Shown here piece by piece: positions 11,964-42,819 of a stretch of 51,653 nucleotides of DNA (positions are counted from its first letter, which is position 1; the number at the start of each line of letters is the position of its first letter). The position numbers and the translations under genes are program-made. Under the pieces are notes generated by a model that saw nothing but the letters and a program-made list of their open reading frames with translations, was not told the DNA's origin and did no database searches. This stretch comes from an uncultured Bacteroidota bacterium (lineage in GTDB: Bacteria > Bacteroidota > Bacteroidia > Bacteroidales > FEN-979), in NCBI GenBank assembly GCA_937862805.1, contig CALMDO010000184.1:1-51653 (forward strand), read 5' to 3'.

Positions 11964-11984
11964 GTTGTCACAGAGCTTCTGCTG

Positions 11985-23953: not shown

Positions 23954-23987
23954 AGTGACATTTTGTGAACCGGTACAAATATTCAAC

Positions 23988-24004
23988 TATATTTGATATA
24001 TTTG
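23988..24004 (+). promoter_or_regulatory. Tandem -7 boxes upstream of the GPP34 gene
   Basis: Two exact TATATTTG boxes (23988-23995 and 23997-24004) form a 9-bp tandem repeat. They are 24-32 bp before ATG 24028. Either or both could position the polymerase. Confidence 0.5.
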
Positions 24005-24027
24005 ACTTACTTTTTATCCTCATCTCA

Positions 24028-24891
24028 ATGAACCCTTTCCTTACCATTCCGGAAGAACTCTACCTGATCACCGTCGATGAAAAAACCGGCAGGAAGCCTT
24101 TCCTGAAATCCCGGAAATTTGATCTCCTGCTGGCCGCTGCCATACTCATGGAACTGGCTCTGCAACGAAGGATCGATACCGACATCGATGTGGTGCTTCC
24201 CGATCTGCCCGACCCGACCGGTCATCCACTGCTTGACCCGGCCCTTGAACTGATCCACAATTCCCCGCATCAACGGCAAATCACCTGGTGGTTGCTCAGA
24301 CTGGCTGAAAATGCCGGTACATCACGAGAAACCCTCGTCAACGGATTGATCAGGAAAGGGTTGCTGAAAATGGTGAAAAACAGAGTTTTGATGGAAAGCA
24401 ATGCAGCGATCAGGGAGATGAAGAACCGCATACGGGAAACTATCTTCAGCAACGAAATTCCCGATTTCAGGAATATGGTGATCATCAGCGTTGCCTGGTA
24501 CGGAGGATTGCTCAATTTCATCCTTACTGAAGAAGAAATTCATTCCCACCTGGCACGCATTGACCAGTTGGCAAAAATGGATATGATCGGACAAGCCGTC
24601 TCCCGGTCAAAACATTCAATGACCCTCTCCATCCTGCTCTCCCTGCGCACCAAAGAGATCCTGGGGATCAAAACCCCGGAAGAAAAACTGGATGAACTCG
24701 TCGAAGAAATGAAAGCCCTCACCCGGATCAGCAGCGATGAAGAACTACCCGACTGGTTGCGGAAGGGGACCGCACAATACCGGAAAACCCTGGATTATAT
24801 CCGGGAAACCGGCACTAATGAAATTGTTTTTAACAGAAATACAGGCACTTACGAATTGAAAGCCGGCGCCGACCAACGCCGGTTTTTCTGA
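24028..24891 (+). CDS. GPP34 (Golgi phosphoprotein 3-like) family protein
   Basis: The start is ATG 24028 (MNPFLTIPEELYLITVDEKT); the upstream GTG extension to 23965 overlaps the promoter boxes. 287 residues. The N-terminal core LTIPEELYLI, then FDLLLAAAILMELALQRRID, and the LVNGLIRKGLLKM segment match the all-helical GPP34 fold known from eukaryotic GOLPH3 and many actinobacterial proteins. There is no signal peptide or membrane helix, so it is cytoplasmic or peripherally membrane-bound. In eukaryotes the family binds phosphatidylinositol-4-phosphate; the bacterial role is unknown. A rho-independent terminator overlaps its final codons. Confidence 0.85.
   Translation: MNPFLTIPEELYLITVDEKTGRKPFLKSRKFDLLLAAAILMELALQRRIDTDIDVVLPDLPDPTGHPLLDPALELIHNSPHQRQITWWLLRLAENAGTSRETLVNGLIRKGLLKMVKNRVLMESNAAIREMKNRIRETIFSNEIPDFRNMVIISVAWYGGLLNFILTEEEIHSHLARIDQLAKMDMIGQAVSRSKHSMTLSILLSLRTKEILGIKTPEEKLDELVEEMKALTRISSDEELPDWLRKGTAQYRKTLDYIRETGTNEIVFNRNTGTYELKAGADQRRFF
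24858..24888 (+). terminator. Rho-independent terminator overlapping the GPP34 stop
   Basis: CCGGCG (24863-24868) pairs with CGCCGG (24877-24882) around an 8-nt loop. The stem is extended by a G-U pair and AAA/UUU and is followed by TTTTT at 24883-24887. The TGA stop lies at 24889-24891, so the last codons are inside the hairpin. Confidence 0.75.
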
Positions 24892-24921: not shown

Positions 24922-26448
24922 ATGACCAAACAACTCGTATTTTTCCTTACAATTTTATTGCTCCTCCCCCTGATGGCCCTTAACCAAACACTTCTTCCTC
25001 CGCCGCTTCAGCACGATTTTTTAAAATTAACCTCGTACGATGAATTATCTTCCTATATCAACGAGGTCTCGAAAACTTCCGGAAGGATGAAAGTAGAAAT
25101 CATCGGACAATCAGTCAAAGGCAGGAACCTTTACGCCGTCACTTTTTCTGAAAAAGAATTCGCCATAGATCAGAATAAGTTAAGGGTATTGCTCTTTGCA
25201 CAGCAACATGGGAACGAACAATCGGGGAAAGAGGGGATGCTTCTCCTGATCCATGAACTGTTAAAACCTGAAAATCGTTATCTTTTTGAAAAAATCGACC
25301 TGGCCCTGATTCCGCAGATCAATCCCGACGGGGGGGAAATGAACACGAGACGGAACGCCAACAAGGTGGATCTGAATCGCAACCACATGATTCTTACCGA
25401 ACCGGAAACCATCGCACTCCATTCATTTTTCGACCGGTACCTTTTCGAAGCCACCCTCGACGTTCACGAATATTCTCCCTATGGAGAACCATGGGAACAC
25501 TATGGTTACCGGAAGAATTCCGACATCACCATGGGTGCTGCAACCAACCTCAATGTAGCCCTGGCCATCCGTGACCTGTCGAACCAGGAACTTCTGCCTT
25601 TTGTCTTCAATTATCTGAAAGAGAGAAAATTCTCCGCGTTTACCTATTGCCCTGGTGGCCCTCCGGAAGAATCCTATATCCGGCACAGCACTTTCGATGT
25701 CAACGACGGTCGCCAGAGCCTGGGTATCCAAAACACTTTTTCCTTTATCCAGGAAGGAATGAACGGAAAGGATGATTCCATAGAAAATATCCGCCACCGC
25801 TCCGAAGGGCAAATGACCGGGATGCGAGGAATGTTGGAATATTGCTTCCGGAATGCCGGGAAAATCAAAACCCTGGTCAGCGAAAGCCGGAAACTGCTGA
25901 CAGAACCTCCTGTCCCCACAATGGTATCCATCCAGTCGATCCACAAGAGCAACGGGAGCATCCTGCCACTTCCGCTGTACTCCTATGCTACCGGAAAGGA
26001 CACGGTGGTCAACGTCAAAGACTACCGCCCCGTGGTCGCCTCCCTGACAGATACCGAAAAACCCGAAGCCTACCTGATCCCTGCCGACTGTACCCTTCTC
26101 ACCGACTGGGTGAAAAGGCAGTCACTAAAACAAATACCTTACATATATAATCCCGGTGACCGGATCCAACAGTACCACATCGGCGTCATTGACTCCATCG
26201 ACTTTGAAGGCGACAGGATCGTCAACCCCGTTGTGACCCTGCAGGAACTTCCCGTTATTCCTGCAGGAAAGAAATTCATCCGTGTTCCCCTTGACCAATT
26301 GAAAGGGAACCTGATAATCCTTGCCCTCGAGCCTCAATCGATGCTCGGATTAGTGACCTACCCTCAATTTGCTTCCATTATACAGCAAGAGAAAATTTTC
26401 CCCGTTTTACGTTTACATAATAATTTCATTACTAATCATACAAAATAA
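24922..26448 (+). CDS. Secreted M14 family zinc carboxypeptidase
   Basis: The start is ATG 24922 (MTKQLVFFLTILLLLPLMAL), which gives a signal peptide; the frame extends five codons to a TTG. About 508 residues. The M14 domain begins LTSYDELSSYINEVSK with the usual IGQSVKGRNLYAV strand. Zinc ligands are H96-x-x-E99 (QQHGNEQSGKEG) and His182 (LDVHEYSPYG). The substrate-carboxylate region INPDGGEMNTRRNANKVDLN has the Arg and Asn residues of the family. The C-terminal 170 residues are an unrecognised beta-rich domain. It probably trims C-terminal residues from peptides in the periplasm or outside. The racemase-like gene follows 12 bp downstream, so the two are probably co-transcribed. Confidence 0.9.
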   Translation: MTKQLVFFLTILLLLPLMALNQTLLPPPLQHDFLKLTSYDELSSYINEVSKTSGRMKVEIIGQSVKGRNLYAVTFSEKEFAIDQNKLRVLLFAQQHGNEQSGKEGMLLLIHELLKPENRYLFEKIDLALIPQINPDGGEMNTRRNANKVDLNRNHMILTEPETIALHSFFDRYLFEATLDVHEYSPYGEPWEHYGYRKNSDITMGAATNLNVALAIRDLSNQELLPFVFNYLKERKFSAFTYCPGGPPEESYIRHSTFDVNDGRQSLGIQNTFSFIQEGMNGKDDSIENIRHRSEGQMTGMRGMLEYCFRNAGKIKTLVSESRKLLTEPPVPTMVSIQSIHKSNGSILPLPLYSYATGKDTVVNVKDYRPVVASLTDTEKPEAYLIPADCTLLTDWVKRQSLKQIPYIYNPGDRIQQYHIGVIDSIDFEGDRIVNPVVTLQELPVIPAGKKFIRVPLDQLKGNLIILALEPQSMLGLVTYPQFASIIQQEKIFPVLRLHNNFITNHTK

Positions 26449-26460
26449 ACAGACAAAACC

Positions 26461-27573
26461 ATGCGTATAGAAAGAATTGAACTCAGGCACGTTAAATTGG
26501 TACTGGTCAGCCCGTTTGTGACATCCATGGGTGCCGAATACGACGAAGAACATATAATTGTCCGGGTCGATGCCGAAGGTGTCACCGGGTGGGGTGAAAG
26601 TGTGGCCGAAGGAACCCCCTTCTACTCTCCCGAAACGGTGCCGACCGCCTGGCACATCCTTACCGATTTTCTAATGCCATCGGTTTTGGGGAAAGATCTT
26701 CAAAACGTTGGCGAAGCCATTGAAGGATACGAGAAAGTCCGCGGCCACAGGATGGCTAAAGCCGGACTGGAAGCGGCCTTATGGGATGCTTTTGCCAAAA
26801 CCAAAGGGATTTCCCTCTCCCAAATGATGGGTGGTACCCGCAAAAAGATAGATGTCGGTGTAAGCATCGGCATCCAGGAATCGGTTCCGGCTCTTTTAAA
26901 AAAAGTGGAAAGCTACCTTGCTGAGGGATACAAACGGATAAAGATCAAAATCGCTCCCGGTCTCGACCTACAATTCGTCGAGGCCCTCCGGAAAGCCTAT
27001 CCCTCTCTGCTGTTGCAGGTGGACGCCAATTCAGCTTACACCCTGAGCGACATCGACCTTTTCAAAAAAATGGACCATTATGGATTGTCGTTGATTGAAC
27101 AACCCCTCGGTTATGAGGATATCTATGACCATTCAAAAATGCAGCGGGAGCTCAAAACCCCGATATGTCTTGACGAAAGCATCCATTCAATCGACGATAC
27201 CCGTGCAGCCATTGAGTTAGACAGTTGCCGGATCATCAACATCAAGCCCGGCCGGGTAGGTGGGTTTACCGAATCGAAACTGATCCATGATTACTGCGCC
27301 TCTAAAAACATCCCGGTTTGGCATGGCGGAATGCTCGAGTCGGGCATCGGCAGAGCCGGAAATGTTGCATTGGCTTCCCTGCCCAACTTTACCCTTCCGG
27401 GCGATATTTCCGCAAGCAAACGCTACTACAAGCAGGATATCGTTGAACCGGAATTTGTCGTCAACCCCGATGGAACGATGGATGTCCCCGTCAAACCTGG
27501 TATCGGCGTAGAGGTGAACATGCGGGCGTTGGACAACGTCACAGTGCGCAGTGTCGCTCAGAAAATCTGGTAA
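26461..27573 (+). CDS. menC: Enolase-superfamily MenC2: o-succinylbenzoate synthase / N-succinylamino acid racemase
   Basis: 370 residues of MLE-subgroup enolase fold. The catalytic pair Lys163 (KRIKIKIAPG) and Lys262 (NIKPGRVGG) and metal ligands Asp188 (VDANSAY), Glu213 (LIEQPL) and Asp238 (CLDESIHS) are all present. The C-terminal stretch GMLESGIGRAGNVALASLPN with TLPGDISAS is diagnostic of the type-2 MenC/NSAR group rather than the L-Ala-Glu epimerase group. Members catalyse o-succinylbenzoate synthesis in menaquinone biosynthesis, racemisation of N-succinyl amino acids, or both. No other men gene is nearby. The upstream M14 peptidase and downstream peptidases suggest a role in amino acid or D-amino acid handling, which is inference. 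Confidence 0.88.
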   Translation: MRIERIELRHVKLVLVSPFVTSMGAEYDEEHIIVRVDAEGVTGWGESVAEGTPFYSPETVPTAWHILTDFLMPSVLGKDLQNVGEAIEGYEKVRGHRMAKAGLEAALWDAFAKTKGISLSQMMGGTRKKIDVGVSIGIQESVPALLKKVESYLAEGYKRIKIKIAPGLDLQFVEALRKAYPSLLLQVDANSAYTLSDIDLFKKMDHYGLSLIEQPLGYEDIYDHSKMQRELKTPICLDESIHSIDDTRAAIELDSCRIINIKPGRVGGFTESKLIHDYCASKNIPVWHGGMLESGIGRAGNVALASLPNFTLPGDISASKRYYKQDIVEPEFVVNPDGTMDVPVKPGIGVEVNMRALDNVTVRSVAQKIW

Positions 27574-27630
27574 TTATCCAACCGGATTGTTCCATCAACT
27601 GACGCTTTGCTGATAAGGACAGGAATAATC

Positions 27631-29277
27631 TTACCTGACTGGTGGTTTTAATGTCGCTTCCTGCAGGCAATGGTTGACGATCGACAGGATTTTTTCCATC
27701 TTCAAAGGATCTGTCTTTTCAGCCACATCCCGGGGTGAATGGTAATCAGCATGGAACCCTGAAAAAAAAGTCATGACCGGGATCTTTCGTTCAGCAAAAG
27801 CACCATAATCACTTCCTGAATGGTCCGTAACATCCCAAAAATCAAGTTGGAAGGGATTATTCAATAAGTCGTTGGAGGCTCTGGCCAACTTCCGGAGGTC
27901 TTCACTGACCGGGAGCGTACCAATGCTTATCTGACGGCCAGCCGTATCGATGAGGTCATTTCGCGACAGCATATCCATGTTGATCACCAACGATAACCCT
28001 TTCCCCACCACAGGTGATGTCCCACAAAAAAAAGTGCTCCCAAGAATCCCCTTTTCTTCGGCAGTCCATGCAGCAAACAGCAGATTACAGGCGGGTTTTT
28101 CAGGACTACGGCTCCATTTCGCCGCAAGGGACAACATTCCGGCTGTGCCGGAGGCATTGTCATCTGCTCCGTAGTAAGTAACTGCGCCTCTGGTACCAAG
28201 GTGATCATAATGTGCTCCTACCAGGATATACCTCGTGGTATCCAGGCCACGGATCATGCCGACCACGTTGCGAGCCAGTAAAGTCTCCGCCTTGATCGTA
28301 ACGCCAAAGCGAATCCGATGACCGGGTATGAGCGCTGAAGCATTGGTCAGGTGACGGGCCGATTGGATCTCAAATTTTTCAAGATTGATATTACCGCCTT
28401 TCAGGAGTTCAGTGGCTACTTTCTTCCCAACCGTGAAACAAGGGATGGTGCAGGTGGTGGTATCTCCCAATAGAGCGTACTCGCCATCGTCGTACTCGGG
28501 GTCACCGGGGTTGATGGGAATCATACAACGTTCCGCCTGATTGAGGTTGGTGACCGTTTGCCGGGTAATTGCTTCCTGTTCAGAGGTATTCACAAGGATC
28601 ACGGCCAGGGCTCCTTGTTGTCGGGCCGTGCAGATTTTTTCATCACGTGATGCGAATTTTTCTCCGAAATTTTTTCCCAGCAGAGACCGTACCGGGGCCG
28701 TGGTATCCAAATGACCGGGATAACCTTCAAGGATCAAAACGATCCTTCCTTTAATATCCAATCCACGGTAATCATCGTACTGTTTATCCGGCGCTTTGAT
28801 CCCGTATCCTCCAAAAAACAACAGGGCTTCTCCTTCGCAACTCCGTGGAACAGGTTGAATGCTGTAATCCAACCGGGGATTGAATAAAATCGCGGATTCT
28901 CCCTCCTGATTCCGGGAAATCAGGGCCAACGAGGAATTTTCCACATTAACCCGGGTTAGGTAAAAATCCTGGAAATAATCGGTATTACCGTCGATACCCT
29001 GTGGGTTATCCCTTGTCCCATCAGGATAACCGTAAGGAAGCAGTCCATTCATCTGCATCAGGGAAGCGATGTAGTCGGCAGCCATAAATCCACCGCGTGA
29101 ACCGGTTTCCCGTCCCTCCATCCATCCCGAAGAAAGAAAACGGAGGATGGGTGCAAAATCAGTGGCTACAGGTGGCACCACATTTTTCCTGACCGGTTGG
29201 GCTGTCAGGATGCAGGTTGGCAACAACAGGAAAAAGAGAAGGGAGCGAAGGGCGCGGTTTTTCAGCAAGTTTTCCAT
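27631..29277 (-). CDS. Secreted M28 family aminopeptidase with PA domain
   Basis: 548 residues with an N-terminal signal peptide (MENLLKNRALRSLLFFLLLP, then TCILTAQ). A PA (protease-associated) insert occupies about residues 125-310 (LDIKGRIVLILEGYPG, QGALAVILVNTS). The M28 di-zinc site follows: His356 in GAHYDHLGT, Asp in GADDNASGTA, Glu pair in WTAEEKGILGS, Asp in INMDMLSR and a final His in GFHADYHSPRD. It removes N-terminal amino acids from peptides outside the cytoplasm. Its ATG overlaps the iadA stop as TAATG, so translation is coupled to iadA. Confidence 0.93.
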   Translation of the reverse strand: MENLLKNRALRSLLFFLLLPTCILTAQPVRKNVVPPVATDFAPILRFLSSGWMEGRETGSRGGFMAADYIASLMQMNGLLPYGYPDGTRDNPQGIDGNTDYFQDFYLTRVNVENSSLALISRNQEGESAILFNPRLDYSIQPVPRSCEGEALLFFGGYGIKAPDKQYDDYRGLDIKGRIVLILEGYPGHLDTTAPVRSLLGKNFGEKFASRDEKICTARQQGALAVILVNTSEQEAITRQTVTNLNQAERCMIPINPGDPEYDDGEYALLGDTTTCTIPCFTVGKKVATELLKGGNINLEKFEIQSARHLTNASALIPGHRIRFGVTIKAETLLARNVVGMIRGLDTTRYILVGAHYDHLGTRGAVTYYGADDNASGTAGMLSLAAKWSRSPEKPACNLLFAAWTAEEKGILGSTFFCGTSPVVGKGLSLVINMDMLSRNDLIDTAGRQISIGTLPVSEDLRKLARASNDLLNNPFQLDFWDVTDHSGSDYGAFAERKIPVMTFFSGFHADYHSPRDVAEKTDPLKMEKILSIVNHCLQEATLKPPVR

Positions 29278-30401
29278 TATACCAGAATTTTTCCCATAGC
29301 CATGACATGCAGGATGTTAAAAGCAGGATCGAGCAACACCAGGTCGGCATCCAGGCCTTCGCGGATTTCGCCTTTCCCGGCCAGTTTGAGAATCCTGGCA
29401 GGATTGGAAGTGGCCACCTTTAAAGCAGTCATGGGTGGTATTTTTTCATCGAAGATGGCCTCCTTGATTTCCCTCAGGATGGAAGAGGGTAGTCCCATAT
29501 CGATCTTGACCAGCCGGCCCTCTTTATCAAATAAGGGAAGGGAACCACAACCATCGGAGGTAAAGGTGATATTTTCAGCGGGGACTCCCGCTTCCAAAAG
29601 CTGTTTCAGGGCAATGGAGGGTTTGATCTCTTCATCCGGGTCATAAGGATAGGAGCTGGTCGTGATATCCACGTATCCTTTTTTCCCATATTCTTTAGCG
29701 TCCTCAAAAATATAATGGTTCCTGTTGCAATGGGTCGGAAGGAACTGCCGGTAGCCCATTTCGCTGTGGGCCACTACATCATGCAGGGGGCGAAAAGGAT
29801 CTTTGGCGTCGCCCATGTGGATGTTGATGATTCCTGCTTTTCCCCCGATCATACCGGCTACGCGGGCATGGGCCGTGATGCGGGTCAGTTCGGTCAGCGA
29901 TGGAACCGAACTCCGATGGTCGGAAATCGCCACCTCTCCAACCCCGATGATCTCTTCAAAAAGCGCGATGTCCTTCGCAATGTCGCCGGTGATGGAAGGT
30001 GGCGGAACCTGGTAGGCGCCGGTGTACATCCAGGCGGAGACACCCTGTGAACGGAGTGTCTTGACCTTCATCAAAACACTTTCCACCGTTCGGGTGATGC
30101 CGTCGGTCCCAAGGCAGCCGATCACGGTAGTCACCCCACCTTCGAGCATCATGCTGAGTTGCAATTCGGGCATACGGCTGGCCGGTCCTCCTTCGCCTCC
30201 TCCCCCGGTAATGTGAACATGGCTGTCGATCAAACCGGGAATTAAGGGTTTCCCTTCACATTCTATGATAGTGACCTCCATTCCTGCAGGGGGATCGATA
30301 CGATCAGCAATGGCCAGAATGGTCTTTCCTCCGGTGAGAAGGTCCTTCTTACCCAGGTCAGAGGGGCTGTAAATATGAGCATTTCGAAACAATGTCAACA
30401 T
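29277..30401 (-). CDS. iadA: Isoaspartyl dipeptidase (beta-aspartyl peptidase)
   Basis: The start is set at ATG 30401 (MLTLFRNAHIYSPSDLGKKD), which aligns with the beginning of E. coli IadA; the frame runs 21 codons further upstream without support. 374 residues of amidohydrolase (M38) fold. The metal site is GLIDSHVHITGGGGEGGP. Substrate-binding and metal segments GCLGTDGITRT, YTGAYQVPPPSITG, and AISDHRSSVPSL are characteristic of IadA. It is cytoplasmic and hydrolyses beta-aspartyl dipeptides such as beta-Asp-Leu. Such dipeptides arise from damaged proteins or, as beta-Asp-Arg, from cyanophycin. The secreted cyanophycinase gene is divergent from it with a 114-bp gap, which points to the second source. 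Confidence 0.93.
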   Translation of the reverse strand: MLTLFRNAHIYSPSDLGKKDLLTGGKTILAIADRIDPPAGMEVTIIECEGKPLIPGLIDSHVHITGGGGEGGPASRMPELQLSMMLEGGVTTVIGCLGTDGITRTVESVLMKVKTLRSQGVSAWMYTGAYQVPPPSITGDIAKDIALFEEIIGVGEVAISDHRSSVPSLTELTRITAHARVAGMIGGKAGIINIHMGDAKDPFRPLHDVVAHSEMGYRQFLPTHCNRNHYIFEDAKEYGKKGYVDITTSSYPYDPDEEIKPSIALKQLLEAGVPAENITFTSDGCGSLPLFDKEGRLVKIDMGLPSSILREIKEAIFDEKIPPMTALKVATSNPARILKLAGKGEIREGLDADLVLLDPAFNILHVMAMGKILV

Positions 30402-30515
30402 CTTTTCAGGTTTTATAAGGCAAAGTTGTGAAAAAAACAGTGTCATTGATGTTATATCTGGCATATTTTTATACTTTAGCCTTCAATTCTGATTTTTTTC
30501 TGATACTTTTCGACT

Positions 30516-31796
30516 ATGTGTCGAACCTGGTCTGTTTTAGTCCTGTTTGTTTTCATCACTTCTTTCTCTGTCAAAGCCCAGCAGCGACCCGCGGGAAGCC
30601 TGGTCATCGTAGGAGGCGGACTCGAGGCCAATAACAAAAGTGTGTTCGAACAGATGATCCTATTGGCCGGTGGTCCCGAAAAAGCAGTTTTTGCCGTGAT
30701 CCCTTCTGCAGGAGGAGCACCAGTGCAATCATTTGCATATTTTAAGAGCGAACTGGTTTACTATGGGGTTTCCCCGGAAAAAATACACCTGATCCCTATC
30801 GCTGTGATGGACGACGACAGTACGCTGGAGGTTAATGAAGCAGAATGGAAAGACAATGGCAATGATCTGAAGTGGGCCGGTCTTATCAGGCAGTGTTCTG
30901 CCGTATGGTTTACAGGAGGTGACCAGCTCAGGACTACCAGGGCGCTCTATCTTCCCGACGGGAGTTCCACACCGGTGTTAAAAGCAGTATGGGATGTTTA
31001 CAATAAAGGAGGGGTGATCGGGGGAACCAGCGCCGGAGCTGCCATCATGAGTGAAACGATGATCGGGGCAGGCACCAGCATGGGAGCCCTTCAGCATGGC
31101 GTTGTTAAAAATTACACCGGCGATGATTTCCCGGAAGATGATGGTGTGCTGATTACCCGTGGACTGGGTTTTTTCCCAGGAGGCATAGTCGATCAACATT
31201 TCCTGGTCAGGGCAAGGATCGGAAGGCTGGCAGTTGCCCTGCTGAACGAGAAGATCCCCGGTAACCTGGCCTTCGGGGTGGACGAAAACACGGCCATCCT
31301 TTATAACAGCCCGCAAAACCGGTTCACTGTAGCCGGCGCCTCCGGGATCCTTATCCTCGACGGGGCGAATGCTACCCTTGATCATCAGGGCCCGTTGGCT
31401 TCCATCTACAACATTTCGGTCAGCTATCTGGAAGAAAACGATCAGTTTGACCTCACCACAGGGAAGGTAATCCCTGCTCCCGGAAAAGAACCGGTGGTGC
31501 CGTCGAAAGAACATCCTTTCCATTATTCCGGTCAAACCGGTATTCTTTCAGGAACTCCCGACACCTTCCGGGAATTGCTCATTGAGCCGTTATTGGATCC
31601 CGAATACAGCGACACCCTTCACAACCTTAACTTCACCGGGAGCGAATTGGCTTTCCGGGTCTCCCTTTCCAGATCGGCGACCAGTGCCGGTTTTTCTTCT
31701 AAAAACGGACACAACCGTCAATATACTTTAACAGGAATCCGGATGGATATTGTCCCTGTCCGGGTTTCCGTCACCCCAGTTAATACTTTGAACTAA
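30516..31796 (+). CDS. Secreted cyanophycinase (peptidase family S51)
   Basis: 426 residues with a signal peptide (MCRTWSVLVLFVFITSFSVK, then AQ). The S51 fold is clear: GSLVIVGGG at the N-terminus, oxyanion Gln137 in FTGGDQLRTT, nucleophile Ser172 in GGTSAGAAIMS and Asp226-Gln227-His228 followed by Arg232, Arg234 and Arg237 (DQHFLVRARIGRL). As I recall the Synechocystis CphB structure, the equivalents Gln101, Ser132, Asp172, Gln173, Arg178, Arg180 and Arg183 define the cyanophycin pocket; the spacing in the DQH-R-R-R stretch is identical. The C-terminal 130 residues are an extension beyond the usual family length. It cleaves the arginine-decorated polyaspartate polymer to beta-Asp-Arg dipeptides outside the cytoplasm. 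It is first in an operon with susC, susD and a lipoprotein gene (gaps 15, 18 and 27 bp). Confidence 0.9.
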   Translation: MCRTWSVLVLFVFITSFSVKAQQRPAGSLVIVGGGLEANNKSVFEQMILLAGGPEKAVFAVIPSAGGAPVQSFAYFKSELVYYGVSPEKIHLIPIAVMDDDSTLEVNEAEWKDNGNDLKWAGLIRQCSAVWFTGGDQLRTTRALYLPDGSSTPVLKAVWDVYNKGGVIGGTSAGAAIMSETMIGAGTSMGALQHGVVKNYTGDDFPEDDGVLITRGLGFFPGGIVDQHFLVRARIGRLAVALLNEKIPGNLAFGVDENTAILYNSPQNRFTVAGASGILILDGANATLDHQGPLASIYNISVSYLEENDQFDLTTGKVIPAPGKEPVVPSKEHPFHYSGQTGILSGTPDTFRELLIEPLLDPEYSDTLHNLNFTGSELAFRVSLSRSATSAGFSSKNGHNRQYTLTGIRMDIVPVRVSVTPVNTLN

Positions 31797-31811
31797 CTTA
31801 ACCCTAAGCGT

Positions 31812-34721
31812 ATGAAAAAACATTACCTTTTATTACTACTATTGAGTGCGCTGTTCGGACAACTTGTTGCCCAGGACATCCCGGTAAGCGGATTGATCAC
31901 CGCTGCCGATGACAACTCACCCCTCCCGGGAGTGACTGTTTTGATCAAAGGAACCAGCCAGGGTACCACCTCCGACCTCAATGGAAAATATTCACTCGCG
32001 GCTCCTTCCGACGCCATCCTTGTGTTCTCTTTTGTCGGGATGCAAACCCAGGAGATCCCTGTGAACAACAAACGCGTGATCAACGTGAAACTCAGTGATC
32101 AGGATGTCGCTTTGGGCGAATTGGTGGTAGTGGGATACAGTACAACCAGCAAAAAGTTGATCTCCGGGTCTGTTGAATTGCTTAACGAAGACGAAATTAA
32201 AAATATACCTGTCAGAACCTTAGATGGGGTTTTACAGGGTCAGACAGCCGGTTTGACCATCACCCCGCAGTCGGGAACTCCGGGTGGCCAAAACATGATG
32301 AAACTCAGGGGAGGAAGCTCCATCAACGCCAGCAACCAACCCTTGTTGGTCATCGATGGCATCCCTGTCATCACCGGTCAAACCTCACAAGTAAGTATGT
32401 TGGGACAAGAGCTGAATGCCATGACCGATATCAACCCTAACGACATCGAATCGATGACGATCCTGAAAGATGCATCTGCTACCTCTGTTTATGGCGCCAG
32501 GGCATCCAATGGGGTTATCCTGATTACGACAAAAAAAGGAAGCCGCGGTAAAACGGATGTTTCTCTTAACATGAGTTATGGCTGGCAAAACCTGCCCAAA
32601 GAACGGTTGATTCCGATGATGAGCGCCGACGACTGGAATGCTTACAAGGGAACCAACGTACAGGGAATTAATACCAACTGGATGGATGAAATCCTGGTCA
32701 CCGCCCCCACCGCCAATACCGAACTCTCAGTGAGCAGTGGCAACGATAAGTTCAGACTCTTTATCTCCGGAAACTATTATGACCAGGGTGGCGTCGTAAT
32801 GGGAACCTCCTACCAACGTTACAGCGGCCGTATCAATGCCGATTATAAAATCCTGCCTAACCTGACTGTCGGCGGCGGAGTGGGAATCACCTACTCCAAT
32901 AACAAGCGGGTCGAGGGAGATGCCACCACGAACGGTCCCTTGCCCAATGCCATGTCAATACCCGCCATTTACCCGGTTTTTGATTCCACCGGAGCTTACG
33001 ACGAGACCATGTACTACGCGAACCCTGTCGCCATTGCCAATAATTCAATCAACAGGGCCTACACCAATCGTGAAGTGGGCAATGTTTACCTGGAGTACAA
33101 ATTTTTAGACGGATTTACCTTTACCTCCAAATTCGGGGTTGACCTGTATGACTTGCGCGAACACAGCTACGACCCGACTACAACCCGCCAGGGAAAAAAA
33201 TACAACGGCCTGGGAATAGAAGGCACCAACTACGCCAGCAACATCACGGTTAACAACGTACTTCAGTACATCCATACCTTTAAAGAAAAACACAGCATCG
33301 ATGCGTTGATCGGGCAAAGTTATGAAAAATATTGCCGGCGGACGACCTACATCGAAGGGATCAACTTCCCGAACGACGACCTGCAGTACCTGACCTCCGC
33401 AGGCACCATCCGCTATGCTTCCGCCACCGCCCTCGACCGCGTTATGAACTCCTATTTCGCGCAATTCAAATACAACTTCAAATTCAAATACATCTTCACG
33501 ATCACTGCCAGAGCCGATGGTTCCTCGAAATTCGGCGAGAACAACAAATACGGATATTTCCCTGCAGGATCCTTCGCATGGCGTATGTCGGAAGAACCTT
33601 TTCTGAAAAAGATTTCCTGGATCAACGAACTCAAACTCCGCGCTATTTATGGACTGACCGGGAATGACGGAATTGGCGATTTTGCCTCCTTAGGGCTTTA
33701 CGGCGCAGGGTATAACTACGGCGGCTCCTCGGGAATCGCCCCCACCCAACTCCCAAACCCCGATCTGAAATGGGAAACCACAACACAAACCGGCCTGGGT
33801 TTTGATTTTTCGATACTCAAAAACAGAATCACCCTCAATTTCGATCTCTATTATAACCGCACGAAAGACCTGCTGCTCGAGAGACCCATCCCCTCCTCTT
33901 CAGGCTTTTATACCATCTCTTCCAACATCGGACAACTTGAGAACAAAGGGATGGAAATTTTGCTCAACACGGTTAACATCGACAAAGCTTTCACCTGGAC
34001 CACCAACTTCAACTTCGCCATGAACCGCAACAAAGTGCTGAGCCTTTATGAAGACCAGCCAATCGACGACCAGGGACGGGGCGGCAGCCGGGTTGAAGTG
34101 GGTCAACCCATCGGTATTTTCTACGGATACAACTGCCTGGGTGTCGATCCGACTACCGGTAGCCTTGTCTATGAAGACCTTGACGGCGATGGCGTCATCA
34201 CTTCCGCCGACCGGATGAAAACCGGCGATCCGAATCCCGATTTTACAGCCGGTATGACCAATGTTTTCAGTTATAAGAATTTCGAACTCTCCATCTTTCT
34301 CCAAGCTGTGTACGGCAACGATATCTTCAACGGTACCCTCATTTATCTTGAGTCGGGAACCGGTGAAGATGCCCAGACTGCCCGCATGAACGACCGCTGG
34401 AAAAAACCGGGAGATATCACACAATTCCCCAAAGAGGGCGATTCCTATAAATCGTCACGGTTTATTGAAGACGGTTCCTTCCTCAAAGTCCGGAATATCA
34501 CCCTGAGCTACACCTTCAAAAAGGAGTGGGTAAAACACATCGGTATGAAGTCGGCGAAAATCTACGGCACAGTACAGAATGCTTACACCTTCACAAACTA
34601 TACCGGAATGGATCCCGAAGTCAACTATTATGGCGGTTCGAGTAACATTGTCCAGGGCACCGACTTCTTTACCCATCCCCAAACCAGAACCTTTCTTATT
34701 GGTTTGAGTTTTCTTTTTTAA
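31812..34721 (+). CDS. SusC/RagA family TonB-linked outer-membrane transporter
   Basis: 969 residues with a signal peptide (MKKHYLLLLLLSALFGQLVA, then QD). Residues 22-105 are a carboxypeptidase-regulatory-like domain (SGLITAADDNSPLPGVTVLI). The plug domain follows from about 110 (LVVVGYSTTSKKLISGSVEL, LQGQTAGLTITPQSGTPGG, IDPNDIESMTILKDASAT-like NPNDIESMTILKDASA, YGARASNGVILITTKKG). A 22-strand beta-barrel runs from about 240 to the terminal strand TFLIGLSFLF. It imports oligomeric ligands across the outer membrane with its SusD partner, powered by TonB. Its place after cyanophycinase suggests a peptide ligand, as for RagA; this is inference. Confidence 0.96.
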   Translation: MKKHYLLLLLLSALFGQLVAQDIPVSGLITAADDNSPLPGVTVLIKGTSQGTTSDLNGKYSLAAPSDAILVFSFVGMQTQEIPVNNKRVINVKLSDQDVALGELVVVGYSTTSKKLISGSVELLNEDEIKNIPVRTLDGVLQGQTAGLTITPQSGTPGGQNMMKLRGGSSINASNQPLLVIDGIPVITGQTSQVSMLGQELNAMTDINPNDIESMTILKDASATSVYGARASNGVILITTKKGSRGKTDVSLNMSYGWQNLPKERLIPMMSADDWNAYKGTNVQGINTNWMDEILVTAPTANTELSVSSGNDKFRLFISGNYYDQGGVVMGTSYQRYSGRINADYKILPNLTVGGGVGITYSNNKRVEGDATTNGPLPNAMSIPAIYPVFDSTGAYDETMYYANPVAIANNSINRAYTNREVGNVYLEYKFLDGFTFTSKFGVDLYDLREHSYDPTTTRQGKKYNGLGIEGTNYASNITVNNVLQYIHTFKEKHSIDALIGQSYEKYCRRTTYIEGINFPNDDLQYLTSAGTIRYASATALDRVMNSYFAQFKYNFKFKYIFTITARADGSSKFGENNKYGYFPAGSFAWRMSEEPFLKKISWINELKLRAIYGLTGNDGIGDFASLGLYGAGYNYGGSSGIAPTQLPNPDLKWETTTQTGLGFDFSILKNRITLNFDLYYNRTKDLLLERPIPSSSGFYTISSNIGQLENKGMEILLNTVNIDKAFTWTTNFNFAMNRNKVLSLYEDQPIDDQGRGGSRVEVGQPIGIFYGYNCLGVDPTTGSLVYEDLDGDGVITSADRMKTGDPNPDFTAGMTNVFSYKNFELSIFLQAVYGNDIFNGTLIYLESGTGEDAQTARMNDRWKKPGDITQFPKEGDSYKSSRFIEDGSFLKVRNITLSYTFKKEWVKHIGMKSAKIYGTVQNAYTFTNYTGMDPEVNYYGGSSNIVQGTDFFTHPQTRTFLIGLSFLF

Positions 34722-34739
34722 CCGTTAATTCCGAAAACT

Positions 34740-36074
34740 ATGAAAAAAATTGTATATATCTTCATCGCACTGGCCTTAACAACCCTCTCCTGCAAAAAGA
34801 TGCTGGACATTCAACCCACGGATTCCATTTCATCCGAACAGGCCATCAATGATGCAGCCGGTGTTCAAAAAGCTATCACCGGCGCCTATTATTCCCTCCA
34901 TGATGCGGGCAACTACGGCCGCAACATGGTCATCGTGGAAGACCTTGCAGCCGATAACCTGTCGTGGACAGGTACCATGCGCGATTACCTTCAAATTAAT
35001 GAAAATCTGATCGCTGCCGACAACGCCATTATCGATGGTATCTGGACTTCCAACTACGATTGCATCAACCGGGTCAACAACGTGCTCTACCGGATTGACG
35101 GAATCTCCATGAGTGATGACAATCGGGATCTTTACACGGGCGATGCCCTCTTCCTACGGGCGCTGTCGCACTTCAACCTACTTAACTACTTCGGCGGAAT
35201 CCCGATCAAGACCATGCCAACCCTTGATCTCAGCACGATCAATCAAGCCCGCAACTCCGTCGCTGATGTTTACAGCCAGATCATTGCTGACCTCACCACC
35301 GCCGAACAATTGCTTCCCCCAAAAAGACCCCTGGGCTGGGCCAGCTCCTTCAGCGCAAAAGCATTGTTAGCCCGCGTTTACCTGACAAAATACCATCTCA
35401 CAGGCGATGTGGCTACAGCTACTTTGGCCATCACCAAAGCCGGAGAAGTGATCGGTGACGGGGGATTCATCATGGCCCCGGCCTTCGCCGACCTCTACAA
35501 CGGCAACACCACCGAATCGATCTTTGAGGTGGTCTTTGATGCCCAGAATTCTAACCGCCTTGCCCAATATTTCTTCCCTGTCAGCCTTACCGGCCGGTAT
35601 GAAGTGTCACCCTCCCCTGCTTTCGTTGAGGGATTCAGGACAACCGATACCGTCAGATTTCAGGCATCCATCGCTTTCGACTCCAAAAACCTTCCCTACG
35701 GCATCAAATACAAGGATTATACCTCCGGCACCGACCGGGTGTACGTCCTGCGCCTGGCCGAAATGTACCTGATCCGCGCCGAGGCACGCGCCTATACCAA
35801 CGGGGAGATCGAAGCCATCCGCGATGACATTAACGTGGTGAGAACCCGCGCCGGGCTCGATCCGACCACCGCTGCCGACTATCCCGAACTGAAACTGGTC
35901 ATCGAAAACGAGCGCAGGCACGAATTTGCCTTTGAAAGCCAGCGATGGAGCGATCTGGTCAGAACGAAAAGAGCTGCCACCGTGCTGGGCATCGACCCAA
36001 AATATACCCTCTTCCCGATTCCGCTCAGCGAACTCCAAACCAACAACCTCATGACCCAGAATCCCGGCTATTGA
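34740..36074 (+). CDS. SusD/RagB family surface lipoprotein
   Basis: 444 residues. The leader ends in the lipobox TLSC with Cys18 as lipid anchor. The family pattern is present: N-terminal DIQPTDSISSEQAINDAAGV, TPR-like helices including YTGDALFLRALSHFNLLNYF and SFSAKALLARVYLT, and the C-terminal signature LRLAEMYLIRAEARAYTNGE with RRHEFAFESQRWSDLVRTKRA and LFPIPLSELQTN. It caps the SusC pore and captures the ligand at the cell surface. It lies 18 bp after susC in the same operon. Confidence 0.96.
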   Translation: MKKIVYIFIALALTTLSCKKMLDIQPTDSISSEQAINDAAGVQKAITGAYYSLHDAGNYGRNMVIVEDLAADNLSWTGTMRDYLQINENLIAADNAIIDGIWTSNYDCINRVNNVLYRIDGISMSDDNRDLYTGDALFLRALSHFNLLNYFGGIPIKTMPTLDLSTINQARNSVADVYSQIIADLTTAEQLLPPKRPLGWASSFSAKALLARVYLTKYHLTGDVATATLAITKAGEVIGDGGFIMAPAFADLYNGNTTESIFEVVFDAQNSNRLAQYFFPVSLTGRYEVSPSPAFVEGFRTTDTVRFQASIAFDSKNLPYGIKYKDYTSGTDRVYVLRLAEMYLIRAEARAYTNGEIEAIRDDINVVRTRAGLDPTTAADYPELKLVIENERRHEFAFESQRWSDLVRTKRAATVLGIDPKYTLFPIPLSELQTNNLMTQNPGY

Positions 36075-36101
36075 TCATTTCATTATCTTAAAGACAACTA
36101 T

Positions 36102-37325
36102 ATGAAAAGAAATCTGTTATATCTTATTTCGGTTTTGTTCATCCTGACGATGAGCGCGGGATGTAAAAAGAAAGACATGGGAACCCCCGCGGCAAGTACC
36201 GTGGCCAATTTCACCTATGTCATCAATAACCAGGGATACGCCCCATGTGATGTGACCTTTACCAATACCTCCCTGAATGCCTTAGGCTATACCTGGGATT
36301 TCGGCAACGGGCAAACTTCCACCGAACTCAACCCCTCCACCACCTACAACACACCCGGCCTCTATACCGTCAAACTGACCTGCACCCCGGTCAGTGAACT
36401 CTATTATAACCAAAGCGTAAAGACCGTTGTAATCAATGTGAAAGACCCCCTGGCCGGCCTGAGCCAGGTGTTCTATTTCACCACCCGCGGTACGCCCGCT
36501 CTTGGCCACAGCGTCATCCTCGACGATAACCCCCCGCTGGTGCAGGATTTCGTTCAATCCGACATGGCACGGCCTTATGGTATTGCTGTCGATACAGCCC
36601 ATAAAAAAGTTTACATCTCCGACTTTTATAACCAGGCCATCTACCGTTACAATGCAGATGGCACCCTTCCGGAGAAAATTCTGGATGCCACGGTCCCCGG
36701 ACAGGAACTCTGCGGCGATGCAGAAGCCATCTTCTTACTGGGAGATAAGATCTACTGGGGGCGCACCGGTGGCATCTACCGCGCCAACCTGGATGGATCC
36801 AATCCTGAACTTTTTATCCCGATGAACGGAGGAGATGCAGAACCCATGTTCCCGATCGATATGCAATATGATCCTGCCAGCGGAAAAATATACCTGGTGA
36901 ACGATAAAACCGATTACCTGGGAGGCTTCTGGTCGGTGAATTTCGATGGCACCAACTTCCAGAAGATCACTTTTGACGCCCCCGGAACCTCCGATATCGA
37001 CGGAACAGCCCTCGAATTAGATACCCGGACAGGAAAAGCGTACCTGGTGATCTACCCGGGCGACGGTACCGTAGCACCCGACGGCGGAGTTTACATGTGT
37101 AACCTCGATGGGACCAGTTTTACCCGTATCGGCGACATGGGAAGCAAAGCAACCTGGGGAATAACCCTCGACGAAAAACACAACAAGCTGTTCTGGGGAA
37201 TCAAAAACTCCAACTCCAGCCCCGACGGCAAAATTATCCGTGCCAACCTCGACGGCTCCAACCCCGAAGATTGGATCACGGGCGTAAGCCCCCATGCCAT
37301 GACCGTGGTATGGATCAAATTGTAA
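36102..37325 (+). CDS. PKD-domain beta-propeller lipoprotein
   Basis: 407 residues with lipobox SAGC (Cys21). Residues about 35-115 form a PKD-type Ig domain (TFTNTSLNALGYTWDFGNGQ, TYNTPGLYTVKLTC). Residues about 120-407 are a propeller of YWTD/DUF5050 type with at least four repeats ending in a DG turn (IYRYNADGTLPE, IYRANLDGSNPEL, VNFDGTNFQKI, MCNLDGTSFTRI, IRANLDGSNPEDW). It is the last gene of the cyanophycinase-susC-susD operon and sits where glycan loci encode SusE/F-like binding proteins. I infer a surface ligand-binding role. The operon ends at a strong terminator 4 bp later. Confidence 0.85.
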   Translation: MKRNLLYLISVLFILTMSAGCKKKDMGTPAASTVANFTYVINNQGYAPCDVTFTNTSLNALGYTWDFGNGQTSTELNPSTTYNTPGLYTVKLTCTPVSELYYNQSVKTVVINVKDPLAGLSQVFYFTTRGTPALGHSVILDDNPPLVQDFVQSDMARPYGIAVDTAHKKVYISDFYNQAIYRYNADGTLPEKILDATVPGQELCGDAEAIFLLGDKIYWGRTGGIYRANLDGSNPELFIPMNGGDAEPMFPIDMQYDPASGKIYLVNDKTDYLGGFWSVNFDGTNFQKITFDAPGTSDIDGTALELDTRTGKAYLVIYPGDGTVAPDGGVYMCNLDGTSFTRIGDMGSKATWGITLDEKHNKLFWGIKNSNSSPDGKIIRANLDGSNPEDWITGVSPHAMTVVWIKL

Positions 37326-37328
37326 AAA

Positions 37329-37374
37329 AAGAAGCGGGCGACACGTTGTAGGGTGTGTCGCCCGCTTCTTTTCT
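37329..37374. terminator. Strong bidirectional rho-independent terminator
   Basis: A perfect 16-bp stem, AAGAAGCGGGCGACAC (37329-37344) and its complement (37355-37370), encloses a 10-nt loop. The stem ends in A- and T-rich flanks on both sides. It lies between the convergent SusCD operon and the T9SS gene and can stop transcription from either direction. Confidence 0.92.
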
Positions 37375-37388
37375 TCTATAATCGTTTT

Positions 37389-38489
37389 CTATCTGACCAC
37401 CATCATCCTGCGTGACTGAACCTGGTCGTTGAACATCAGCCGATAGAAGTAGATACCGCCAGGTAAACCTGAAGCATCCATTGTAACAGAGTAATTCCCT
37501 TTGGTTTGTTTGGTATTGACCAAAGTGGCTGCTTCCTCACCCACAGCGTTGAAAACCTTTAAGGTTACCAATCCTGATTCGGGGAGCTGATAAGTGATCC
37601 GGGTCGATTGGGTAACCGGGTTGGGACGGTTTTGACCAAGGGCCAGCTCGTTCGATACCACCATCTGGTCGTCAATACCGGTGAATAGTGACTGGTATTT
37701 CACAATGGCAGCAGCCATGTTGGTGAGCATAGCCTGTTCGGTAGCACCAATGGCCATGGCATAAAAAACATCCACTGTCTCCTGAGGAGCCAGGGTCACG
37801 GCATTCTGCGAGGTAATGGTAACAGGTCCGTCGGCCGTTGTGGAAATATATTGCGGCTGCAGGGAACCATAATGCATATAGTTCCAGTAATTGGGATCGG
37901 TAGAATAATCCTCAAACCATTCTAAGGAATAGAGGGATGACATGGAAGCATTCAACAATTTGACGCCTAAATGTTCCTGGTTCCCCCGGTGAAACCAGAT
38001 AACCCCTTCGGTACTGTTGTAAGTCACCGTATCATAACCATATTCCTCATTCAGTTCGGGGATCATGTCAAGCCCGATGAAAGCATTGATGGCTTCCGTC
38101 TCATTGTTCTTGATGTTGAATTTGATAATGGTGTAAGGTGCATTCGTCCAACCATAGGCGTTCAATTTTTCAATTACATCCGGCGGCAGGTCAGAATAGC
38201 TGTTATCATAGGCACCATAGATCTCGTAATTGCTCATGGTGGGGTTGGAAACCAGCACCGTCGGCTCCAGTTGTTCTGCATCGTTGGTGTAATCGAACAC
38301 CGCGTTCTGGCCGGTCCCGACCAGGATGGATGCACGCTGTAAATGTCTGATATCATTGGGAGTAAAAAGCCGGATACGCCCGTACTGGCTCACATCCACA
38401 CGGATAGCTCCCGTATTAAAGGTAGCCTGTGGAAAAACCTGGACGATGCACAGTAACATTAAAAGAGGAAAAAGTAACGTTTTTTTCAT
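37389..38489 (-). CDS. Secreted protein of unknown function with T9SS C-terminal sorting domain
   Basis: 366 residues with a signal peptide (MKKTLLFPLLMLLCIVQVFP, then QA). Residues about 25-275 are a beta-rich region that I do not assign to a family; it contains FDYTNDAEQLEPTVLVSNPT and IGLDMIPELNEEYGYDT. The last 80 residues are a T9SS type-A domain (LALGQNRPNPVTQSTRITYQ, VTLKVFNAVGEEAATLVN, PGGIYFYRLMFNDQV, MMVVR), so it is exported to the cell surface or medium. It is convergent with the SusCD operon and shares its terminator. Confidence 0.88.
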   Translation of the reverse strand: MKKTLLFPLLMLLCIVQVFPQATFNTGAIRVDVSQYGRIRLFTPNDIRHLQRASILVGTGQNAVFDYTNDAEQLEPTVLVSNPTMSNYEIYGAYDNSYSDLPPDVIEKLNAYGWTNAPYTIIKFNIKNNETEAINAFIGLDMIPELNEEYGYDTVTYNSTEGVIWFHRGNQEHLGVKLLNASMSSLYSLEWFEDYSTDPNYWNYMHYGSLQPQYISTTADGPVTITSQNAVTLAPQETVDVFYAMAIGATEQAMLTNMAAAIVKYQSLFTGIDDQMVVSNELALGQNRPNPVTQSTRITYQLPESGLVTLKVFNAVGEEAATLVNTKQTKGNYSVTMDASGLPGGIYFYRLMFNDQVQSRRMMVVR

Positions 38490-38524
38490 AGTGAGAATAT
38501 TTATTTGTTAAACTTAGTTTTACA

Positions 38525-38532
38525 CAAATATA
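38525..38532 (-). promoter_or_regulatory. -7 box for the T9SS protein gene at 37389-38489
   Basis: On the minus strand TATATTTG is an exact TAnnTTTG match, 35 bp upstream of ATG 38489. No -33 TTTG was found at the standard spacing. Confidence 0.45.
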
Positions 38533-38641
38533 GCTATTTTTACCAAAATTGATGTACCTGAATGACATATTTTCTGATAAGGGCACCTGAAACATGCTGT
38601 CGAAATATCCATAAGAACCAAAAGATTGTGAAAAAATAAAA

Positions 38642-38649
38642 TAAATTTG
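38642..38649 (+). promoter_or_regulatory. -7 box for the YfcC-type transporter gene
   Basis: TAAATTTG matches TAnnTTTG exactly and lies 32 bp before ATG 38682. Confidence 0.45.
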
Positions 38650-38681
38650 CTTCCAATCCCTGCACTATTAAACACCAACCC

Positions 38682-40073
38682 ATGGAAAAGAAAAAGATCC
38701 CGCATACCCTGATCATTGTCTCCATCATTTTGATAATCTTTTTGATACTGACCTGGATCATTCCTTCCGGCGAATTCGACCGGCATGAATACAATGGCCG
38801 CCAGGTTGTTGTTCCGGGAACCTATCACCAGGTAGAGTCACAACCTCAGGATTTAGTCGATCTTTTTACAGCCCCTATAAAAGGGATGATTTCCGCGGCG
38901 CAGATCATCGCTTTTGTGTTGCTGATCGGAGGCGCTTTCGGCATTTTAAACAAAACCGGCGCCATCAATGCCGGGTTGGCCGGTATTCTGGAAACAACAA
39001 AGAAAAATCCTGCCATAAAAAAATTCATCATCCCGATCATCATGTTCCTTTTTTCTTTAGCCGGCGCCTCTTTCGGCATGTGCGAGGAGGTGATGGTCTT
39101 CATTTTGATCACCATTCCGCTGTCCATTGCCATGGGGTACGATTCACTCACCGGGATCGCCATGCCTTTTATCGGGGCTGCTTCGGGTTTTGCAGGCGCT
39201 TTCAGCAACCCCTTCACCATCGGGATCGCCCAGGGAATTGCCGAAATACCGGTCTTCAGCGGTTGGGAATACCGGATCGCGGTTTGGCTTGTACTGATGG
39301 CTGCCGCCATCACCTTTGTGATGGTCTATGCCCGGCGAATCGAAAAGAATCCTGAAAAAAGCCTGGTTTATGAAATCGACCGGAAGCGGGATCTGACAGG
39401 ATATCACACAGACGAAGACCTGGCCTTCACGTTCAAGAGAAAGATGGTTCTGGTAATCTTTTTCGCCTCCCTTGTCCTGTTGATCATCGGGGTGAATATC
39501 TGGGGCTGGTACATCAATGAAATAGCAGGGTTGTTCATCGCCATGGGATTGTTGGCGGCCCTCTTTTTCCGTCTGCCCTCCAACACTGCAGTCGGGGCTT
39601 TTCTGGAAGGCGCCCGCGATATGATGACCGCGGCCTTGGTCATTGGTTTAACACGAGGCATGCTCATCATAGCGACCGACGGCAAGATTATCGATACCAT
39701 CCTCAATGGAATTGCCGGTACCATGGGCCAGTTTCCGCAGGTTGTCTCCGTGCAGATGATGTTCTTTTTCCAGGGTTTCATGAACTTCTTTGTTCCTTCG
39801 GGATCCGGCCAAGCCGCCCTCACCATGCCTCTGATGGCCCCGCTGAGCGACCTGATCGGTATTTCCCGCCAAACGGCAGTGCTGGCTTACCAGTTGGGCG
39901 ACGGCTTGTTCACCAACATCTTTCCTACCAGTGGTGTCACAATGGGCATCCTGGCCATCGGCAACATCCCTTACGACAAATGGATCCGCTTTATGCTCCC
40001 CTTATCGCTCCTGTTCCTGATCCTCGGATGTTTGTTACTGATCCCGCCGGTACTGCTGTTTATGTATCACTGA
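38682..40073 (+). CDS. YfcC/DcuC/ArcD-superfamily membrane transporter
   Basis: 463 residues with about 12 hydrophobic helices. The N-terminal layout (IPHTLIIVSIILIIFLILTW, IIPSGEFDR with a periplasmic loop), the GGAFGILNKTGAI segment, SFGMCEEVMVFI, and the duplicated re-entrant motifs GFAGAFSNPFTIGIAQ and NFFVPSGSGQAALTMPLMAP match the YfcC/ArcD branch of the DcuC family. Members move basic amino acids or dicarboxylates, with arginine/ornithine exchange in the ArcD-like group. Its place next to a cyanophycin-type locus would fit arginine or aspartate/ornithine transport, but this is inference. Confidence 0.9.
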   Translation: MEKKKIPHTLIIVSIILIIFLILTWIIPSGEFDRHEYNGRQVVVPGTYHQVESQPQDLVDLFTAPIKGMISAAQIIAFVLLIGGAFGILNKTGAINAGLAGILETTKKNPAIKKFIIPIIMFLFSLAGASFGMCEEVMVFILITIPLSIAMGYDSLTGIAMPFIGAASGFAGAFSNPFTIGIAQGIAEIPVFSGWEYRIAVWLVLMAAAITFVMVYARRIEKNPEKSLVYEIDRKRDLTGYHTDEDLAFTFKRKMVLVIFFASLVLLIIGVNIWGWYINEIAGLFIAMGLLAALFFRLPSNTAVGAFLEGARDMMTAALVIGLTRGMLIIATDGKIIDTILNGIAGTMGQFPQVVSVQMMFFFQGFMNFFVPSGSGQAALTMPLMAPLSDLIGISRQTAVLAYQLGDGLFTNIFPTSGVTMGILAIGNIPYDKWIRFMLPLSLLFLILGCLLLIPPVLLFMYH

Positions 40074-42787: not shown

Positions 42788-42819
42788 GAAGTGTGGTATT
42801 AAACTATAAATGTTGATTA

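Follow-up and report, generated by a model that had tools for sequence, protein, structure and literature searches.

The DNA analysed here (the window) is a stretch of 51,653 nucleotides, contig CALMDO010000184.1 of an uncultured Bacteroidota bacterium (GTDB lineage Bacteroidales; FEN-979; assembly GCA_937862805.1). Between positions 24922 and 40073 it carries a gene cassette that is very likely a scavenging locus for extracellular cyanophycin, serving the capture, import and digestion of this polymer. Cyanophycin is a nitrogen-storage polymer of cyanobacteria. The cassette comprises a cyanophycinase of peptidase family S51, a SusC/SusD outer-membrane importer, a lipoprotein with a PKD domain and a beta-propeller, the isoaspartyl dipeptidase IadA and a YfcC-type carrier.

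Ben Hania et al. 2017 are said to report, in their abstract, a complex for cyanophycin transport with homology to polysaccharide utilisation loci, that is, one of SusCD-like nature. The initial annotation of this DNA had proposed a cyanophycin/beta-Asp-Arg utilisation locus with a SusCD importer and considered such a dedicated importer to be new. The proposal is supported by a conserved linkage and by intact enzymes, but its novelty must be given up, as Ben Hania et al. 2017, in a paper on a Bacteroidetes clade that scavenges cyanobacteria, are already credited with a 'cyanophycin utilization locus', in which cyanophycinase and iadA stand together with a transporter (PMC10206079). Among 52 genomes that lack the cyanophycin synthetase gene cphA1, the same source finds cyanophycinase clustered with an isoaspartyl dipeptidase in 45 (PMC10206079). 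The window fits this wording, with cyanophycinase, iadA and a transporter clustered and no cphA1 found: in the genome, which is 91.8% complete, no match exceeded the cphA1 cut-off, the best partial one reaching 68 bits versus 850. The cell is therefore probably a scavenger. The kind of locus is already known, and the present analysis adds its breadth (at least 17 families), a single group of SusD proteins and another type of cyanophycinase-like protein, which ends in a tail for the type IX secretion system (T9SS) and is apparently lacking in this genome. A limited literature search, partly of excerpts, met no account of a SusD group that spans the order and none of the propeller protein, though these may be published.

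The predicted S51 cyanophycinase and IadA

The S51 protein scored above the cyanophycinase equivalog cut-off of TIGR02069, and its closest matches in the Protein Data Bank (PDB) were the cyanophycinases 7uqv, 3en0 and 7uqw. In CphB, the critical residues beside Ser132 are Gln101, Asp172, Gln173, Arg178, Arg180 and Arg183 (PMC3235067). The window enzyme has Ser172, His228 and Glu257, together with the pocket residues Gln137, Asp226, Gln227, Arg232, Arg234 and Arg237. Ser172 and the pocket residues keep the spacing of CphB, and all of these catalytic and pocket residues are invariant in a ten-row alignment of the same type of S51 (type a, see below), window row included. Judged from its sequence, the window S51 is a predicted cyanophycinase with the critical CphB residues intact.

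The protein starts with a Sec-type N-terminus, and inspection by eye gave no sign of a lipobox or of a T9SS tail; it is therefore an exported protein, with the periplasm as the simplest destination. The initial annotation had called it secreted; the export signal agrees with this, but the simplest site is the periplasm rather than the medium. The extracellular cyanophycinase CphE of Pseudomonas is similar: its 1260-bp gene encodes about 420 residues with a Sec signal and a Ser-His-Glu triad (PMC3235067). CphEal carries Thr at the position of CphB Gln173 (PMC3235067), whereas the window enzyme keeps Gln. Signal and length thus agree with CphE and the Thr does not, though this Thr may be peculiar to CphEal.

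IadA was the sole match over the TIGR01975 cut-off in the genome. It aligned along its length with solved IadAs, sharing the words HVH, GGGGEGG, TGAY, SDHRS, HMGD, THxNRN and SDG, which carry metal and substrate residues. The Lys that precedes AISDHRS in E. coli IadA is replaced by Glu, as it is in 7cdh. Because the family model begins two residues after the Met at 30401, this is the most likely start, and the first ATG of the open reading frame (ORF), at 30464, is probably not used. No signal peptide was seen and the protein is presumably cytoplasmic. IadA is intact and a predicted beta-aspartyl dipeptidase.

Linkage of S51 to SusC and SusD

SusD and S51 were searched in 393 genomes of the order. 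S51 was present in 87 of them, and SusD proteins like that of the window were present in 34 (36 matches). Counting the window's own, 23 of the 36 SusD matches lay at most 6.3 kb from an S51 on the same contig, and this held for 20 of the 25 matches with at least 41% identity. Among the five unlinked ones, two appear to be split at contig ends, inside SusC (G214; G and L numbers are our handles for genomes and loci) or inside a propeller gene (G382). In G412 the contig stops 198 bases past SusD, with IadA beside SusC, in G198 S51 and part of IadA are on another small contig than SusD, and in G173 SusD and S51 are separate. The linked loci span at least 17 families. A close S51 was also found in 18 of 61 relatives (this genome included), and SusC was within the examined stretch in 15 of the 17 others; in G060 about 11 kb of one contig separated it from the type-a S51, and it was not seen on the 4.3-kb contig of G048. 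Such counts across the order indicate that the linkage of S51 with SusCD is not due to chance.

The gene content of 41 loci, window excluded, was compared. Since these loci were picked by an S51 or a SusD match, the counts for S51 (39), SusC (41) and SusD (40) are conditioned by the choice; moreover, the cut-off of 45 bits admits partial matches, and contig ends and the 20-kb length of the stretches lower the counts. Left out were L034 (G048), L050, L051, the duplicates L044 and L046, and the loci of G042, G291, G333, G100, G233, G250, G198 and G173. IadA was found in 35 of the 41 loci, as was the PKD-propeller lipoprotein (29 across the propeller, 5 in the PKD part only and 1 cut by a contig end). 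The YfcC-type carrier was present in 23, two of them with short fragments (G025, G035). The initial annotation had suggested that related genomes be searched for this linkage, and S51, iadA and susCD do indeed stay together far beyond this genome.

SusD matches occur at four places in the 2.8-Mb genome, that of the window included. In a tree of 53 SusDs, 40 linked proteins clustered with two whose linkage was not shown (G198, G173), at a support of 94/93, which narrowly misses the tool's star. Outside this cluster fell eight further unlinked SusDs and the three other SusDs of this genome. The label linked/unlinked changed three times on the tree, and as few changes were observed in 0 of 500 shuffles. 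The root serves for drawing only, and long branches leave the placing of the three paralogs of this genome unsure. The S51-linked SusDs form one group.

Named genomes were scanned for S51 as well, and the best 80 loci, 8 from Bacteroidota and 72 from other bacteria, were taken with flanks of up to 10 kb a side. SusC adjoined S51 in 7 of the 8 Bacteroidota loci (two of which, L044 and L046, are apparently the G012 and G009 loci). In the 72 others, a YfcC-type carrier was near S51 in 35 and IadA in 13; other window genes were rare there (CstA 0, GPP34 0, SDF 1, AraC 1, HK 4). A TonB receptor near a cyanophycinase gene has been described in the proteobacterium Citromicrobium (PMC3400609). We found the same at up to 5 kb from S51 in Qipengyuania (L079, 5573-8422) and Halioglobus (L116, 7110-9902), without a SusD match in either locus. 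These receptors, which would be analogous importers lacking SusD, came from a Pfam scan of 7 hand-picked large ORFs from eleven non-Bacteroidota loci, the 5 others being unrelated, and so give no rate.

The importer, the propeller lipoprotein and the carrier

SusC has the features of its family, namely plug, carboxypeptidase-like domain and SusC signature (TIGR04056, TIGR04057, PF13715, PF07715), and is followed by an adjacent SusD. Its PDB relatives are 8aa4 and others, RagA among them. The lipobox of SusD ends, by eye, at Cys18, and the AlphaFold2 model has a predicted local distance difference test (pLDDT) value of 91.7. The importer thus belongs to the same SusC/RagA and SusD families as RagAB and the classical SusCD systems. 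RagAB takes oligopeptides and classical SusCD takes glycans. The predicted substrate here differs from both, being a chain of poly-Asp to which Arg is joined by isopeptide bonds.

The propeller lipoprotein shows, by eye, a lipidation site at Cys21, followed by a PKD domain and a propeller. Its AlphaFold2 model (pLDDT 90.9) was best matched by Foldseek to YWTD propellers of the low-density lipoprotein (LDL)-receptor/LRP type, which does not indicate a substrate. It is a candidate surface capture protein. The carrier belongs to the DcuC family (PF03606) and scored 393.4 bits with NF008611 (YfcC basic amino acid antiporter), under the cut-off of 500. Since YfcC-type carriers recur near S51 outside Bacteroidota, it is a candidate importer of beta-Asp-Arg.

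Other forms of S51

Two types of S51 were distinguished. The rows compared were chosen by a motif pattern, so that their Ser and His words are present by construction. Type a, to which the window enzyme belongs, has the Ser-His-Glu triad and Gln at the place of CphB Gln173; in 38 type-a rows, the Glu word was found in all and GGDQ in 36 (not in L133 and L134). Type b is longer (about 650-700 residues) and has Thr at the place of Gln173 (Ser in L035). In the ten rows caught by the pattern, it shows Asp-Asp where type a has Asp-Glu, and a crude pattern recognised a T9SS tail-like end in 7 of these. One example, L024, matched the T9SS tail model and scored 94 bits with TIGR02069, below the cut-off. 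Type b was present in 26 of the 41 loci, though G231 and G068 gave partial matches in shorter frames. The window genome (91.8% complete) yielded no type b, which is also missing between iadA and S51 in four genomes of the same family (G025, G030, G008, G015).

A comparable pair is known from Salinivirga cyanobacteriivorans, with one plain S51 and one with a Por domain, in a context different from that of the strain described in the article itself (PMC6243061). The two S51 forms of this species, whose strain L21-Spi-D4 carries the locus of Ben Hania et al. 2017, resemble those of the window's relatives. Unlike this locus, the window genome was found to have a single S51, which is devoid of a T9SS tail and stands beside M14, M28 and MR_MLE genes.

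A third S51 form, with frames of about 435-450 residues and weak TIGR02069 scores, was also noticed (L124, 15409-16095; L137, 14014-14682; also G025, G067 and G194), in some of the genomes near the cassette. In L032 (G016, 7342-13458), type-b S51, S51 and SusC each matched twice in different frames, reflecting either an assembly error or decay.

Proposed pathway and competing explanations

We propose that the PKD-propeller lipoprotein and SusD would hold cyanophycin chains at the cell surface, and that SusC, with TonB, would draw chains or oligomers into the periplasm. There the exported S51 would cut them to beta-Asp-Arg, which the YfcC-type carrier may then move across the inner membrane, and cytoplasmic IadA would split the dipeptide to Asp and Arg. 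In many relatives, the T9SS-tailed second S51 may pre-cut the polymer outside. We infer in this scheme the substrates of SusCD, propeller protein and carrier, the periplasmic action of S51, and any role of the M14, M28, MR_MLE and T9SS-tail proteins.

Several observations weigh against a cyanophycin scavenging locus. Neither fold nor sequence points to a peptide substrate, because the SusD fold search returned mainly glycan-binding or uncharacterised SusDs, which leaves the substrate unindicated, and because 8aa4, the nearest solved SusC, belongs to what we take to be a dextran system. SusD matches were lacking, at the threshold used, in 58 of the 87 genomes with S51; S51 and SusD matches were unlinked in G250 and G233; and in G173 a SusCD pair of the linked group is on a different contig from the S51s. 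In a Lentimicrobium locus (L051), IadA and S51 were present, and SusC and SusD were not found in the approximately 4 kb covered downstream. M14, M28 and MR_MLE are not widely linked to the cassette. AraC and GPP34, which occurred in 0 of the 41 loci, are weak controls, as many stretches end near their expected place. Finally, IadAs from cyanophycin clusters are promiscuous (PMC10206079).

The order of the steps could differ. If cyanophycin is indeed the substrate, S51 might act outside and SusCD import the released beta-Asp-Arg, as suggested by CphEal of Pseudomonas alcaligenes, which has a Sec signal, is called extracellular and was active in the supernatants of E. coli producing it (PMC3235067), and by the T9SS-tailed S51-type protein of the relatives. 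Yet no T9SS tail and no lipobox was seen in the window S51, this genome yielded no S51 of the T9SS type, and a crude pattern detected a lipobox-like word in 10 of 38 type-a S51s. Furthermore, the beta-Asp-Arg dipeptide, at less than 300 Da, would hardly need a SusCD. For this last reason, and because the only cyanophycinase found looks periplasmic, we prefer an order in which chains or oligomers are first taken up and then cut in the periplasm; supposing that the locus serves cyanophycin, import probably comes before cutting, and cutting outside the cell is the less likely order, though one to be taken seriously.

We also considered that the locus might scavenge beta-aspartyl peptides in general, SusCD taking up a mixture of peptides from decaying cells, whose isoaspartyl linkages S51 and IadA would handle while M14 and M28 trimmed the remainder. 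The promiscuity of IadA enzymes mentioned above and the presence of M14 and M28 in 18 and 17 of the 41 loci, respectively, are consistent with this. However, S51 exceeds the cyanophycinase equivalog cut-off and keeps the CphB pocket, a second S51-type gene is frequent in the compared loci, and the linkage of M14 and M28 is narrower than that of IadA, which makes general peptide scavenging improbable. Import of a glycan by a SusCD standing beside S51 and iadA by chance would agree with the fold neighbours of SusD. It is disfavoured by the order-wide linkage of one SusD group, and a scan of 20 window proteins met no glycoside-hydrolase family, although BNR-like repeats occur in one protein with a T9SS tail, so that we consider a glycan locus with chance neighbours very improbable. 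Mobilisation of the cell's own store, which could be entertained since other bacteria have cyanophycinase and iadA together with cphA1 (PMC10206079), is the least probable of all in view of the export signal of S51, the presence of SusCD and the lack of a cphA1 match over the cut-off in the 91.8% complete genome (68 versus 850 bits).

A more far-reaching version of cyanophycin scavenging would combine an order-wide SusCD group dedicated to cyanophycin and importing chains rather than dipeptides, a YWTD propeller that binds cyanophycin, the T9SS-tailed S51 (Asp for the catalytic Glu) as a second, extracellular class of cyanophycinase with a different cutting mode, and, in this cell, import first and digestion after. 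Taken as a whole, this is a tentative proposal, possible but short of an even chance. If the locus does serve cyanophycin scavenging, the substrates of SusCD import would come to include an isopeptide polymer of non-ribosomal origin, and a variety of uncultured Bacteroidales would take part in recycling the nitrogen of cyanobacteria. As a sequence marker, the SusD group could then reveal this trait in metagenomes, and the genes of the cassette provide directly testable candidates for surface binding, transport and digestion.

Layout of the locus and accessory genes

The initial annotation had listed the M14, MR_MLE, M28, IadA, S51, SusC, SusD, propeller lipoprotein and YfcC-type carrier genes, and the ORF list and family scans located all of them where it had placed them (Table 1). 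The T9SS-tail protein is an additional gene, absent from its list. The S51, susC, susD and propeller genes are co-directional and spaced 15, 18 and 27 bases apart. From the divergent region, iadA and the M28 gene run in the opposite direction and overlap by one base.

Table 1 Genes of the putative cyanophycin scavenging locus, in window coordinates
Feature	Position	Strand	Family evidence
M14-family metallocarboxypeptidase	24922..26448	+	PF00246 76 bits; ORF opens at 24907
MR_MLE enzyme, OSBS/NSAR subfamily	26461..27573	+	TIGR01928 370.5 bits, cut-off 200.65
M28 peptidase	27631..29277	-	PF04389 124 bits
IadA, beta-aspartyl (isoaspartyl) dipeptidase (predicted)	29277..30401	-	TIGR01975 449.5 bits, cut-off 331.25
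Divergent region, 114 bases, between iadA-M28 and S51-susCD genes	30402..30515		
S51 cyanophycinase, type a (predicted)	30516..31796	+	TIGR02069 162.5 bits, cut-off 126.6
SusC/RagA TonB-linked outer-membrane transporter	31812..34721	+	TIGR04056 836 bits, cut-off 368
SusD lipoprotein	34740..36074	+	PF14322, PF07980
PKD + YWTD-type beta-propeller lipoprotein	36102..37325	+	PF18911; predicted structure
T9SS type A sorting-tail protein, function unassigned	37389..38489	-	TIGR04183 37 bits, cut-off 23
DcuC/YfcC-type inner-membrane carrier	38682..40073	+	PF03606 377 bits

The initial annotation had also counted M14, M28 and the N-succinylamino-acid-racemase-like enzyme (MR_MLE) as members of the locus. 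They lie beside it in the window, but M14 (with one weak partial match, G207, 24%) and M28 are in less than half of the 41 loci, and MR_MLE is in about one-third (14). The M14 protein has a signal-peptide-like start and, by eye, HxxE, His and DLNR words, which we take to be the motif of the family; the M28 peptidase also has a signal-peptide-like start. The MR_MLE gene, 12 bases behind the M14 gene, encodes the sole MR_MLE_C match in the genome, with 83-91% identity among 13 linked relatives and 76% over a fragment in G111. Its TIGR01928 score is over the cut-off, but no match to menD, the only other men gene looked for, was found in the 91.8% complete genome, so that the enzyme may not be MenC (o-succinylbenzoate synthase); racemase and dipeptide epimerase are candidate roles. 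The T9SS-tail protein, without further family match, was found in 17 of the 41 loci and adjoins the cassette in close families.

The 114-base divergent region contained no match to the strict Bacteroidetes -33/-7 promoter and two weak -7-like words only, and no structured RNA reached the gathering score between 22000 and 43000. The T9SS-tailed protein with BNR-like repeats lies at 41090-42832, beside an AraC/GyrI-like regulator; it had no full-length match in the stretches of the relatives, most of which stop before its place. On the other side, directly upstream of the M14 gene, the GPP34 (Golgi phosphoprotein 3) domain protein that recurred in none of the compared loci occupies 23965-24891.

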